In this document: positions 26,833-61,093 of the stretch, piece after piece
Layout: every line of letters begins with the position of its first letter
Position numbering within the stretch: position 1 is the stretch's first letter
From: Candidatus Flavonifractor intestinipullorum
GTDB lineage: Bacteria; Bacillota; Clostridia; Oscillospirales; Oscillospiraceae
Assembly: GCA_019118925.1 (NCBI GenBank)
Contig: DWYC01000088.1
Location: 27,673-91,672 of the forward strand
DNA length: 64,000 bases
Direction: 5' to 3'
The notes under the pieces: generated by a model
What the model was told of the DNA's origin: nothing
The model's database searches: none
What the model saw: the letters and a program-made list of their open reading frames with translations, nothing else
Program-made: the position numbers and the translations under genes

Positions 26833-27867
26833 ATGTCCACCCTGAAAGAACGTAACGCGGAACGCCTGAGAAAGAGCATCGCCGGAGAGAAGGCGGACGG
26901 CCACGCCGTATTCAACTACTACACCTACCCCTTCTTCCACGCGGTGAGCAAAGTGCCCCTGAACGAGTACTTCCACAACCCCAAGGTCATGTTCGAGACC
27001 CAGCTGGAGGTCTTGGAGCAGCTGGACGGCTGCGGCAACCTGGCCCCCGACGCCGGCGCCGTGGCCGAGTGCAGCGCCCTGGGCGGCAAGGTCCGTTTCG
27101 ACGAGCACGGCTTCATCTCGGTGGCCCCCGCCGAGATTGAGGAGCTGGACGACGTGCTGGCCATCAAGCCCGGCGACCCCTATGGGGACAACTATATGCG
27201 CATCGCGCTGGAGACCCTGGAGTACATGGTGGACCACTGCCCCGAGGGCTACAAGGTCAACCCCCACGCCATCATGGGCCCCTTCACCGTGGGCGCCCAG
27301 CTGCGGGGCATCAGCGACTTCTGCGCCGACACCATTGCCGAGCCTGAGCTGGTGCAGGCCATCCTGGACCTGGTCATCGAGACCCAGATCAACTTCCTGA
27401 AGGCGCAGGAGAAGATTTTGGGCGAGCCCCTGCACCACATCCTGGTGTGCGACGACCTGTCCGCCTTCCTCAGCGAGCAGGCCTATCGGGACATCATCCT
27501 GCCCTCCTATGAGAAGCTCTTTGCCGAGTTCCCCCATACTCAGCGCTGGCTCCACAACGACTCCACCGCCCGCCACATCGCCCCGGACATCTCCAAGGGC
27601 GGCATGGTGGCCTGGCAGTATCATCCCAGCATCACGCCTCAGGACGCCCTGACTCTGACCGAGGGCAAGGTCACCCTGCTGGGCGGCCTGAACCCGGTGG
27701 AGCTGGCCGGCCTCACCGAGGAGGAGACCGTGAAGAAGTGCAACGAGGTCATCGACTCCTTCGGCGGCAACAACCGCTGCGTGCTGGCCGCCGGCGGCTC
27801 CATCAACCAGGTGCCGCTGGTCAACCTGCGGGCCATGTTCCGCGTGGCCGACGAGCGGAAGATCTAA
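26833..27867 (+). CDS. UroD-family methyltransferase with altered metal site
   Basis: A 344-residue UroD-superfamily TIM barrel. The positions holding Zn ligands in MtaA are changed: His241 is kept but the second ligand is Asp243 (WLHNDS instead of HxCG), and the third, normally a GC, reads AAGGSINQVP with no Cys; the closest Cys is 316. This is closer to what is seen in substrate-specific (for example O-demethylase MtvB-like) branches, so I infer that it takes a methyl group from the growth substrate. It probably shares a transcript with the regulator upstream. Confidence 0.82.
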   Translation: MSTLKERNAERLRKSIAGEKADGHAVFNYYTYPFFHAVSKVPLNEYFHNPKVMFETQLEVLEQLDGCGNLAPDAGAVAECSALGGKVRFDEHGFISVAPAEIEELDDVLAIKPGDPYGDNYMRIALETLEYMVDHCPEGYKVNPHAIMGPFTVGAQLRGISDFCADTIAEPELVQAILDLVIETQINFLKAQEKILGEPLHHILVCDDLSAFLSEQAYRDIILPSYEKLFAEFPHTQRWLHNDSTARHIAPDISKGGMVAWQYHPSITPQDALTLTEGKVTLLGGLNPVELAGLTEEETVKKCNEVIDSFGGNNRCVLAAGGSINQVPLVNLRAMFRVADERKI

Positions 27868-48740: not shown

Positions 48741-50045
48741 ATGAGTCTGAGAGTTGTTCATTATATCAACCAGTTCTTCGCCCAGATCGGCGGCGAAGAG
48801 AAGGCCGACTACGCCCCCGAGTATCGGGAGGGCGCCGTGGGCCCCGGCCTGGCTCTGAACGCTGCGTTCAAGGGTGAGGCTGAGATCGTGGGCACCGTGA
48901 TCTGCGGTGACTCCTACTTCAACGAGAATCTGGATGCGGCCAAGAAGACCGTGCTGGACATGATCTCCGCCGCCAAGGCCGACGTGGTCATCTGCGGCCC
49001 CGCCTTCAACGCCGGCCGTTACGGCGTGGCCTGCGGCACCGTGGCCGCCGCCGTGAAGGACGAGCTGCACCTGCCTGTCGTCACCGGTATGTACGAGGAG
49101 AACCCCGGCGCCGACATGTTCAAGAACAAGGTCTATATTGTCGCCACCAAGAACAGCGCCGCCGGCATGCGCGACGCCGCTCCCAAGATGGCCTCCCTGG
49201 CCCTGAAGCTGGCCAAGGGCGAGAAGATCGGCGCCTCCGCCGAGGAGGGCTACATGCCCAACGGCCTGCGCGTCAACTTCTTCGAGAAGGAGCGCGGCTC
49301 CACCCGCGCCGTGAAGATGCTCCTCAACAAGCTGGCCGGCAAGCCCTACACCACCGAGTTCCCCATGCCCTCCTTTGACCGCGTGGCTCCCGGTGCCGCC
49401 ATCACCGACCTGGCCCACACCACCATCGCTCTGGTGACCTCCGGCGGTATCGTGCCCAAGGGCAACCCCGACCACATCGAGTCCTCCTCCGCCTCCAAGT
49501 TCGGCCGCTACGACATCAGCCAGTTCGAGGACCTGACCGCTGCCGACCATGAGACCGCTCACGGCGGCTATGACCCGGTCTACGCCAACGAGGACCCCGA
49601 CCGCGTCCTGCCCGTGGACGTGCTGCGCAAGATGGAGAAGGAAGGCAAGATCGGCGGTATCTACCCCTACTTCTTCACCACCGTCGGCAACGGCACCGCC
49701 GTGGCCAGCGCCAAGAAGTTCGGTGAGGCCATCGGTAAGGAGCTGCGGGATGCCGGCATCAAGGCCGCCATCCTGACCTCTACGTGAGGCACCTGCACTC
49801 GTTGCGGTGCAACGATGGTTAAAGAGATCGAGCGCGCCGGTGTCACTGTGGTTCACATGTGCACCGTCACCCCCATTTCCATGACCGTGGGCGCCAACCG
49901 TATCGTGCCCACCATCGCCATCCCCCACCCCCTGGGCAACCCCGCTCTCACCCACGAGGAGGAGTTCGAGCTGCGCTACAAGCTGGTGGAGAAGGCTCTG
50001 AAGGCTCTGGAGACCCCCGTGGACGATCAGACGATCTTCGACTGA
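48741..50045 (+). CDS. grdB: Glycine reductase component B, selenoprotein GrdB
   Basis: A 434-residue selenoprotein; the ORF track splits it at 49787 because TGA at 49785-49787 encodes selenocysteine. Reading through gives LTST-U-GTCTRCGATMVKEIE, the conserved UxxCxxC site of GrdB/GrdF/GrdH. The downstream ORF at 49815 is in the same frame and completes the family C-terminus ending TIAIPHPLGNP. A SECIS-like hairpin follows the UGA immediately. With GrdE it forms component B, passing the carboxymethyl group to the selenoprotein A. No grdA, grdC or grdD is present in the window. Confidence 0.95.
49785..49787 (+). other. Selenocysteine UGA codon of grdB
   Basis: In-frame TGA at residue 349 within TST-U-GTCTRCG. 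The downstream frame stays open for another 86 codons with full family similarity. Confidence 0.95.
49789..49810 (+). promoter_or_regulatory. Bacterial SECIS-like hairpin
   Basis: Starting one nucleotide after the UGA: GCACC, bulged T, GCA, loop CTCGT, TGC, GGTGC. The bulged U and small loop fit bacterial SECIS elements recognised by SelB. Confidence 0.75.
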
Positions 50046-50455: not shown

Positions 50456-51481
50456 TTACTGCGTGTGCAAATTTGTGTGCAATTTTTCTTCGAAATAATG
50501 GTCTACCAGCTGGGCGACATGCTGCTGTTCGCTGGACATTGTATGCTGGTAGACGGTCTTTAACATATGGTCGGTGGCGTGCCCCATGCGCTCCTGGGCG
50601 TAGCGGTTCGGGATTCCAAGAGCCAGCATGACGGAGGCGTTTATATGACGAAGGTCATGAAAACGGTAATGCTGCACTCCGGCTCGCTTACATATAACCT
50701 GGAATCGTGAGTAGAGGCCGCGCCTTGTAAATGGAATGATATGATCTCCGGTTCTGGGCGCTGCATCGATCAGTCCGCGAATATAGGGAGGGAGCGGGAG
50801 ATCGCGCTGGGAACTATAGGTTTTTGTGAGTTTTTCCCCTTCATCCACAAGAGCGCGCCGGATGTGCAAAACTTCTCCCTCCACGTCCTCCCACTTTAAT
50901 CCGAGGATCTCCGACATGCGCAGGCCCAGCCAGACGGCCAGCAAGATCGGAAGTTCGTTCACGGTTCCTTTTGCGACGGCCATAATTTTCCCGATATCGT
51001 CTCCGGAGGGAATGGCAGGCTCATACCGCTTGCGCTGGGGGAGCGTCGTTCTCAGAATGAAATCAGGCCGGTATGCGGCTAGGGCAGCGCTAAGCAGGCC
51101 GTGGGCATTCCGTACACTTTTTGGAGATTTCTCCCGCGCCATCTTATTTACAGCTCTTTGGACCGCTTCTTGGGTCAACAGAACCAGTTTGATCGGCATC
51201 AGTTCCGGAAGCGCATGTTCACGAATCCTCTTGTAGCCGGCAACAGTCGCCGGGGATAGAACCGAATCTTTGCTCTCAATATACCGGTCGATGGCTTGGC
51301 CGACCGTCATCTGGCTGGGAGAGCTTTCACGCTGAGCGGCTTTCAGACCGGCCTTGATCTGCATGGCCTGGGCCACAGCCTCTTTCTCGGTGGCGGCGGT
51401 GATGGAGACGCGCCGCCCATCCACCATCACCTGGCACCGCCAGGCGCCGGAAGGCAATTTTTTTGCAACTGGAGTTTTCAT
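50456..51481 (-). CDS. int: Phage tyrosine integrase
   Basis: A 341-residue site-specific recombinase. N-terminal AP2-like/arm-binding region (LPSGAWRCQVMVDGRRVSITAATEKEA), SAM-like core-binding domain (about 60-150), and a catalytic domain with Arg in WLGLRMSEILGLKW, HxxR in FHDLRHINASVMLALG and the Tyr in TDHMLKTVYQHT. The ATG at 51481 is used (GAGGGAA upstream); the track start at 51538 lacks a site. It borders the tRNA att fragment and marks the left end of the prophage. Confidence 0.93.
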   Translation of the reverse strand: MKTPVAKKLPSGAWRCQVMVDGRRVSITAATEKEAVAQAMQIKAGLKAAQRESSPSQMTVGQAIDRYIESKDSVLSPATVAGYKRIREHALPELMPIKLVLLTQEAVQRAVNKMAREKSPKSVRNAHGLLSAALAAYRPDFILRTTLPQRKRYEPAIPSGDDIGKIMAVAKGTVNELPILLAVWLGLRMSEILGLKWEDVEGEVLHIRRALVDEGEKLTKTYSSQRDLPLPPYIRGLIDAAPRTGDHIIPFTRRGLYSRFQVICKRAGVQHYRFHDLRHINASVMLALGIPNRYAQERMGHATDHMLKTVYQHTMSSEQQHVAQLVDHYFEEKLHTNLHTQ

Positions 51482-51534
51482 TGTCGTTCCCTCTGCCCGC
51501 TCAAACGAGCGGGCTTTTTTCTTATGCCAGAGGA

Positions 51535-51717
51535 TCAAAAGAGGACCGCGGCTTCTTCGTTTTGGAGGACCTGCGTTTTGAGCCGCGCCACGTCGTCCAG
51601 AAGGGCCTGCATCTCCTCCGGTGCACAGCGGTAAGCCATGATCAGATTGTACTCCGCCTCAGTCAGAACAAGTCCGCCTTCCGAGCCTTGGGCGGGGATG
51701 GGGTGAGAGTCCTTCAT
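51535..51717 (-). CDS. Hypothetical small prophage protein, 60 aa
   Basis: Not recognised. Mostly helical (LTEAEYNLIMAYRCAPEEMQALLDDVARLKTQ). GGGAGGTGACCCC precedes the ATG. It lies between the integrase and the cargo membrane protein genes, on the same strand. Confidence 0.6.
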   Translation of the reverse strand: MKDSHPIPAQGSEGGLVLTEAEYNLIMAYRCAPEEMQALLDDVARLKTQVLQNEEAAVLF

Positions 51718-60012: not shown

Positions 60013-60369
60013 ATGGAGGGCTCGTGGTTCGGGGTAGGGTGCAACATCTATACCCATCCCAAAGTCCTGGGGCTGGCCCGGGAGCTGAAGCTGGATGTGG
60101 ACGCCGCCGTAGGGAAACTGGGCCGCCTGTATGCCTGGGCCGCCCAGAACGGCAATGAGACGGGAGAAATCTCCTATCTCCCGCCGGAGGAGATCGCCGC
60201 CATCATGCGTTGGAAGAAGCGTCCTCAGACGCTCCTCGCCGCCCTGGAGGCCCAGGGCCTATTGGAACGCCAGGAGAGTGGATTGTTCATCCACGATTGG
60301 GAGGAGTACAACGGGGCGTTCTTGCGGAAAAAACGCCGGGACCGAGAGCGGAAAAAAGAAGGGGGATGA
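60013..60369 (+). CDS. Phage replisome organizer N-terminal domain protein
   Basis: 118 residues. WFGVGCNIYTHPKVLGLARELKLDVDAAVGKLGRLYAWAAQNGNETGEISYLPPEEIAAIMRWKKRPQTLL is the winged-helix N-domain of phage replisome organizers. A full protein normally continues after the basic linker; here the frame stops right before a cluster of repeats that resemble origin iterons. It may be a naturally short initiator or a truncated one. Confidence 0.75.
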   Translation: MEGSWFGVGCNIYTHPKVLGLARELKLDVDAAVGKLGRLYAWAAQNGNETGEISYLPPEEIAAIMRWKKRPQTLLAALEAQGLLERQESGLFIHDWEEYNGAFLRKKRRDRERKKEGG

Positions 60370-60377
60370 CCTAGAAC

Positions 60378-60476
60378 TTCCGTGGAATTTCCGCGGAATT
60401 TCCACGGAAGGCTCCGTGAATATTCCAGAGAAATGAGCACGAATTTCCATGGAAAATCCGAAGGCATTCCGTGGAA
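60378..60476. repeat. Helically phased iterons, probable prophage replication origin
   Basis: Five copies of the palindrome TTCC-NN-GGAA at 60378, 60389, 60400, 60445 and 60467. The first three have an exact 11-bp period and the last two are 22 bp apart. GCACGAATTTCC (60437-60448) and GGAAATTCGTGC (60473-60484) form a further inverted repeat. The location just after the initiator-like gene fits a phage origin. Confidence 0.75.
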
Positions 60477-60640
60477 ATTCGTGCGCTACCTGACCTAACC
60501 ATACCGTACCAGTTACGGATACGGCAGTCTAAGCAACCAACGAAAGCTTGTACTTACCTGGAGGCTGGAGGAGGTTCTACCGGAAGTCCGGCAATAGACC
60601 GGGAGAGCCTCCCCCGCCTCCGTGAGGGGAGGGCGTGAGA

Positions 60641-61093
60641 TTGAACGCGAAAGAAATGGACGCCCTGTGGGAGATGCTGGGCATTTTGCGCCCGAAGGAT
60701 GCCCGCTTGCGCAACGAAACGCTGAAGCTCGTGTGGAGCCGGGCCTTGGAGCCCTATGCCTGGAGCGACGTCCACGAGGCTGTGCTCACCCATTTCCGCA
60801 CGCAGAAGTATTTCCCGGACGTAGCCGACATTACCGGGCGCTGCCCGCAGCCCAGAGAGCCGGAGGCACTGGAGGCCGTGCGGTACAGGCAGCCCACCGC
60901 CGGGGAGCGGCAGCGGACGGCGGAGATGGTCCGCCGCTGGCGCGCCTACCGCGCCGCCCTGGAGGCCGCGGGACTCCCCAGCCTCTCCCAGGCCCAGGCG
61001 AATGGGATGCGCTGCGCGGACTGGGACGCGCTCACCCGGGGCGCGGGGATTTGCCTGGAGGATTTTTTGAGCGCGGAGGAGAGCCATGCCTAG
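60641..61093 (+). CDS. Helicase-loader-like replication protein (tentative)
   Basis: 150 residues from TTG 60641, 8 nt after AGGGGAGG (the GTG at 60635 is too close). MDALWEMLGILRPKDARLRNETLKLVWSRALEPYAWSDVHEAVLTHFRTQKYFPDVADI resembles the N-domain of G39P/DnaI-type helicase loaders. It lies after the iterons, as expected for replication genes. Confidence 0.6.
   Translation: MNAKEMDALWEMLGILRPKDARLRNETLKLVWSRALEPYAWSDVHEAVLTHFRTQKYFPDVADITGRCPQPREPEALEAVRYRQPTAGERQRTAEMVRRWRAYRAALEAAGLPSLSQAQANGMRCADWDALTRGAGICLEDFLSAEESHA

Follow-up and report, generated by a model that had tools for sequence, protein, structure and literature searches.

A probable theta replication origin behind a short initiator gene in a prophage of Candidatus Flavonifractor intestinipullorum

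The 64,000 nucleotides analysed here (the window; contig DWYC01000088.1 of Candidatus Flavonifractor intestinipullorum, positions 27,673 to 91,672) include the early region of a prophage, which encodes a tyrosine integrase, an IrrE-type peptidase, a Cro/CI-type repressor, an antirepressor and an exonuclease. The exonuclease gene is followed by an initiator gene, an array of short palindromic repeats and a helicase-loader-like gene; the contig and the window end together, so that the view stops before further downstream genes such as a helicase. The loader-like protein shows weak G39P-type similarity (phrog_2289 'helicase loader', E 0.002), and its counterpart in the related locus L017 matches the same family with an E value of 7.6e-11. 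The glycine reductase selenoprotein GrdB is encoded at 48741-50045 (PF07355, E 2.4e-170); its gene contains an in-frame TGA at residue 349, which probably encodes selenocysteine, and is therefore shortened by standard ORF calling. The features of the prophage region are as follows.

50456-51538, tyrosine integrase, early region of the prophage
60013-60369, plus strand, short initiator of 118 aa: winged helix, then a long C-terminal basic helix
60328-60366, plus strand, codons of the basic motif, K106-KRRDRERKKEGG-118, with D110 (0), K114 (+4) and G118 (+8) as putative reader residues
60378-60387, no strand, iteron 1 TTCCGTGGAA, exact site
60389-60398, no strand, iteron 2 TTCCGCGGAA, exact site
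60400-60409, no strand, iteron 3 TTCCACGGAA, exact site
60423-60432, no strand, degenerate iteron TTCCAGAGAA, one mismatch, a sixth copy
60445-60454, no strand, iteron 4 TTCCATGGAA, exact site
60467-60476, no strand, iteron 5 TTCCGTGGAA, exact site
60488-60512, plus strand, tract ACCTG ACCTA ACCAT ACCGT ACCAG with a 5-bp period, candidate unwinding or strand-loading element
60635-61093, plus strand, helicase-loader-like gene

The five exact TTCCNNGGAA sites reported in the initial annotation of this DNA were confirmed at 60378, 60389, 60400, 60445 and 60467, and one further copy is present elsewhere in the 64 kb (46581). Chance alone would give a mean of 1.57 copies over the 64 kb, and 20,000 dinucleotide-preserving shuffles of 60360-60500 yielded at most two copies, compared with the five observed. 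As described previously, the sites are phased and adjoin the initiator gene; they are palindromes spaced by 11, 11, 45 and 22 bp, and the 45-bp gap between iterons 3 and 4 is partly filled by the one-mismatch copy at 60423. The proposal that all sites lie on one helical face holds within the group of three and within the group of two, but not across all five: because 45 bp does not correspond to a whole number of helical turns, the two groups are on different faces, and at 10.5 bp per turn the last two sites are rotated by about 137-171 degrees from the first. The last two iterons form part of an 18-bp, 94% inverted repeat (60437-60484), the arms of which reach beyond the iterons; it is predicted to fold into a strong hairpin (z -6.55), and the fold differs in L017. 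A strict two-copy array scan of 394 genomes of the order identified one other genome with such an array (L043), which is not located at an initiator. A similarity search of the array DNA against the phages collection gave no match, and the spacings of TTCCNNGGAA pairs in viral contigs gave no clean phase statistic among the matches listed, since spacings in multiples of 3, probably derived from coding repeats, are common. No TTCCNNGGAA iteron in any phage origin was found in open-licence papers, a body of literature in which absence proves little.

The gene at 60013-60369 had been described as initiator-like, and this assignment is borne out by a match to phrog_9474 ('replication initiation protein', E 4.5e-25). 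The match covers the N-terminal positions 2-113 of 288, where the ORF stops, and the helicase-recruiting C-terminal half of the phrog_9474 relatives is absent from the 118-aa protein. AlphaFold2 (58 rows) predicts a winged helix and a helix comprising residues 96-117, with a mean pLDDT of 87.9; the score against phage_rep_org_N (TIGR01714) is 13.4 bits, which is below the curated cut-off of 49.8, and a fold search of the PDB gave no match below E 0.001. Close relatives of the 118-aa protein were not found in viral contigs, one was found in genome contigs, and plasmid records contained no usable relatives. The array lies directly behind the gene, whose TGA (60367-60369) is located nine bases before the first iteron, and is non-coding for the annotated 118-aa protein, as originally stated. 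Beyond this TGA, the initiator frame stays open for 42 codons up to a TAA at 60496 (PRTSVEFPRNFHGRLREYSREMSTNFHGKSEGIPWKFVRYLT), as expected if a longer gene once enclosed the array, and the peptide of this open frame resembles the in-gene iteron linkers of relatives. The initiator has most likely been reduced to its DNA-binding part.

Just beyond the array lies the 5-bp-period tract, which was absent from the initial annotation; the periodicity of 60488-60512 has an empirical p of 0.0012 compared with 803 background windows taken from the 64 kb. Short-period tracts, most often ACCNA, occur shortly after the iterons in 64 of 74 winged-helix initiators, which represent distinct tails and were mostly fetched by protein similarity alone; in these origins the tract is no less constant than the iterons. 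Among named phages, the tract consists of ACCTA in Harrison, AGACC/AGAGT in Lagaffe and nd4, CCCGA in Dardanus and 6-bp units in Rousseau and Mae-JY24. When the iteron pattern was used to find unrelated phages, their tract again began 6-11 bp beyond the last iteron, and viral contigs found by this pattern alone have the units AAGAT or AACCGT. A 5- or 6-bp tract behind iterons is probably a general origin element across very different phages. The region 60485-60525 has an AT content of 46% and is not AT-rich like that of lambda. By analogy with lambda (PMC7466680) and with the DnaA-trios and the DnaD recognition element (DRE) (PMC10201434), the tract may act in unwinding or strand loading. Tracts of 5- or 6-bp period immediately behind the iterons are present in L017, L001-L012, L020, L027, L261-L264 and L280-L359. 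TTCCNNGGAA arrays, most of them with an AACCGT-type tract, are also present in L003, L004, L011, L020, L022, L023 and L026, where they sit between tail-like genes (judged by eye) and away from recognisable initiators. The virus contigs L001, L002, L005-L010 and L012, with a GC content of about 37-38%, combine a TTCCAAGGAA-type array with a tract of AAGAT repeats; these arrays are located near an integrase-like gene, and no initiator was recognised at the array.

The whole arrangement is repeated in L017 (55% identical), in which an exonuclease gene, a short initiator running into the array, a tract (ACCTT ACCAT ACCTA ACCGT ACCAG) and the loader-like gene follow each other; its array contains two iterons that are exact (TTCCGTGGAATTTCCGCGGAA), and degenerate ones lie alongside. 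Relatives with the iterons inside a full-length initiator gene, whose existence had been asserted, were found in L027, L030 and L092. L027 and L030, whose initiators of 261 aa are near relatives of the window protein, have four in-gene TTCCNNGGAA sites in a 33-11-22 bp register, which are followed by CAGTACAGTACAGTAC, a CAGTA-repeat tract. Alignment with related prophages had been suggested as a check for truncation of the gene: the window protein is indeed shorter than those of L027 and L030, but this is no one-off decay, since the short form of L017 identifies it as a lineage and not an isolated accident. It had also been stated that related phages lacking the repeats while keeping replication genes would speak against an origin; most relatives do lack TTCCNNGGAA, but they have another iteron instead, and the difference tracks the residues of the basic helix. 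A 103-aa winged-helix ORF directly followed by a second, full-length initiator in L237 / L251 (G150 C11:105294-106504) is another short initiator present as a separate gene.

Among the protein-selected initiators, the helix that follows 'HDWxEYAG' has the variable pattern [D/N]0xxR3[K/M]4[RK]5xx[R/other]8, and this variation is associated with the half-site of the iteron: D/K/non-R accompanies TTCC, D/K/R accompanies GTCC, N/K/R accompanies GTCA(C) and N/M/R accompanies TGCA(C). The rule is correct in 46 of 50 and 44 of 50 initiators (two countings), compared with at most 27 and 26 in 20,000 label shuffles; it is post hoc, being derived from the 50 loci that it describes, which applies especially to the R8 rule. 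These 50 initiators were selected mostly by protein alone, and for four of the loci (the window, L017, L027 and L092) the TTCC iteron was already known in advance. The window helix, DRERKKEGG (D110, K114, G118), fits the D/K/non-R class with its TTCC half-site. Compared with the expectation from uniform composition, TCCG is found 6.5-fold and TCAC 0.2-fold in D..RK initiators, TCAC 8.3-fold in N..RK initiators and GCAC 8.9-fold in N..RM initiators. Six loci outside the rule-building set also fit, namely L372 and L373 (NMR, GCAC-type sites) and L361-L364 (D-K, TTCC), the latter being no test of D and K because they were fetched by a pattern fixing those residues. L362 and L363 have TTCC despite an R at +8; the proline ahead of this residue may mark the end of the helix there. 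Failures or ties of the rule are L330, L348 and L353 of the small N-M class, which is the weakest part of the code, as well as L275, L338 and L343. On strongly supported branches, four independent D/N pairs are present, three of which co-switch with the iteron, none in the opposite direction and one unchanged, which is too few for significance; widening of the sample via related families and orders added few new loci.

The motif is not confined to winged-helix initiators. Among loci found by the iteron pattern, [KR]D[RN]xRK precedes an array with a 10/11-bp register in 15 of 49 clusters, compared with 1 of 131 other clusters, and a second initiator class, which has a short helical N-terminus without a winged helix, also has TTCC iterons. 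In a profile-profile alignment, RRAKDRERK is the only part common to both classes, and AlphaFold2 places the motif within a long terminal helix in both. The main ground for seeing the basic helix, and not the winged helix, as the candidate iteron reader is that the two classes have both this motif and the iteron in common but differ in the remainder of the domain; the code, which is based on the association between residues and iterons, suggests such a reading. Basic regions of bZIP and bHLH proteins read a palindromic half-site with a basic helix whose contacting residues are on one face. The likeness is one of principle only, as the window protein is a phage protein in which no zipper is seen. 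The iterons of phage Harrison (L261) include TCACGTGA, an E-box-like palindrome, beside a helix with ERKR; the resemblance to the basic regions of bHLH proteins in eukaryotes is curious but probably coincidental. The RDRERK motif was not found in open-licence papers, where absence again proves little. Chances are about even that many phage initiators, from two otherwise unrelated classes, read their iterons by a portable [D/N]xxR[K/M][R/K]xx[R/other] helix with a simple residue-to-base code, so that nine residues would predict the origin sequence. If so, iterons and helix would switch together as a specificity module.

Taken as a whole, 60378-60512 is likely to be a prophage theta origin of the lambda/SPP1 kind, which consists of iterons and a putative unwinding tract and would be bound by the upstream 118-aa protein, whose basic helix would read the iterons, with a candidate loader encoded separately. 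It is a variant of this kind in that its initiator is short and split and its tract is a C-rich 5-bp repeat. The sites, the tract, the gene order, the homology, the association of residues with iterons and the predicted helix are the observations behind this reading; binding, dimerisation, melting of the tract and helicase loading are the steps that we infer. The 118-aa protein would bind the array, most likely as dimers with one dimer per 10-bp palindrome; the main reader of the iterons would be the basic C-terminal helix (KKRRDRERKKEGG), in which residues 0, +4 and +8 are predicted to lie roughly on one face and to contact the half-site. The nucleoprotein complex built by adjacent dimers 11 bp apart would put strain on the DNA, the adjoining ACCNN tract would open, and the helicase would be loaded there by the separately encoded loader (60635-61093), which would replace the missing C-terminal domain of the initiator.

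Several known systems resemble this proposed origin, and for those of SPP1 and lambda the comparison is one of layout. In SPP1, the origin-binding protein gp38 has 256 aa, oriL lies inside gene 38 and gp39 is the helicase loader (PMC6316719). There, the initiator binds direct repeats of its own gene beside an unwinding region, and the small separate loader follows (PMC6316719). The window has a similar layout, with repeats at the initiator's own gene, a putative unwinding tract beside them and a loader-like gene behind; however, its initiator has only 118 aa, its array lies behind the gene, and its tract is a C-rich 5-bp repeat, whereas that of SPP1 is AT-rich. Lambdoid origins, which comprise the iterons of the O protein and an AT-rich region, are similar in that their iterons sit midway along the initiator gene and are followed by a tract that melts (PMC7466680), as the window tract may do, but the lambdoid iterons are longer and different, and the window tract is not AT-rich. 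Paenibacillus phage Harrison (NC_028746) encodes an initiator of the same winged-helix and basic-helix family and has iterons and then an ACCTA-type tract inside the initiator gene; unlike the window, with its D..RK helix and TTCC, it combines an N..RK helix with GTCAC half-sites, and its initiator is full-length with a C-terminal part. In the oriC of Bacillus, the DnaA-trio/DRE motif, which directs strand opening or helicase loading, is also a short-period motif beside initiator boxes (PMC10201434). Its period is 3 nt and its motif is a different one, and the function of the window tract is putative.

In Rep proteins, iterons are usually read by a winged helix, and the same origin might be read by that of the initiator, with the residues of the basic helix travelling along by descent. 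The helix class is indeed clustered on the winged-helix tree; however, on the best tree it must have changed 15 times, close winged helices can have different iterons, as in L298 (N, GTCA) beside L303/L319 (D, GTCC), and the motif and the TTCC iteron also occur in initiators without a winged helix. A winged-helix reader is therefore unlikely. The origin could also be a dead remnant, left over inside a full-length initiator gene that was broken by a stop. The short initiator could be such a decaying remnant because the frame stays open beyond the stop, for 42 codons that encode a linker-like peptide, but in L017, at 55% identity, iterons and tract are intact beside a likewise short initiator, a separate loader-like gene lies next door in both loci, and the five sites are exact, which makes decay quite improbable.

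Two further explanations dispense with replication at this site. Phased palindromes that adjoin the gene of a small winged-helix protein and are intergenic, as they are in the window, could form an operator for autorepression by the short protein or for another regulator, which would control the operon. This is considered very unlikely: no promoter-like site was found on the coding strand around the array (sigma-70 consensus only), and an operator would leave unexplained the mid-gene sites of the relatives, which are usually followed by a short-period tract. Alternatively, hairpins formed by the repeats in the transcript could act as an attenuator or terminator. The region 60430-60495 folds at -29.5 kcal/mol (z -6.55) and 60370-60415 has a z of -4.65, but such pairing is inevitable for palindromic repeats with complementary centres. 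The fold of L017 is different and weaker (z -2.58), no terminator-like site was found, and no Rfam family came near its gathering score; an RNA element was rejected on these grounds, and hardly any likelihood is left to it.

A theta origin read by the basic helix thus remains the preferred explanation, and it has consequences beyond this prophage. The origins of most phages have yet to be mapped; if the iteron can be told from three residues of the initiator and the opening site from a 5- or 6-bp tract, sequence could serve to locate the origins of many uncultured phages, and specificity switches between related phages would become visible. The window is a natural minimal system in which the DNA-binding part, the origin and the loader are separate, and binding, melting and loading are therefore separately testable. 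Residues 166-261 of the L027 initiator, its C-terminal part, lie behind a different N-terminal part in L257-L260, which points to domain swapping in initiators.
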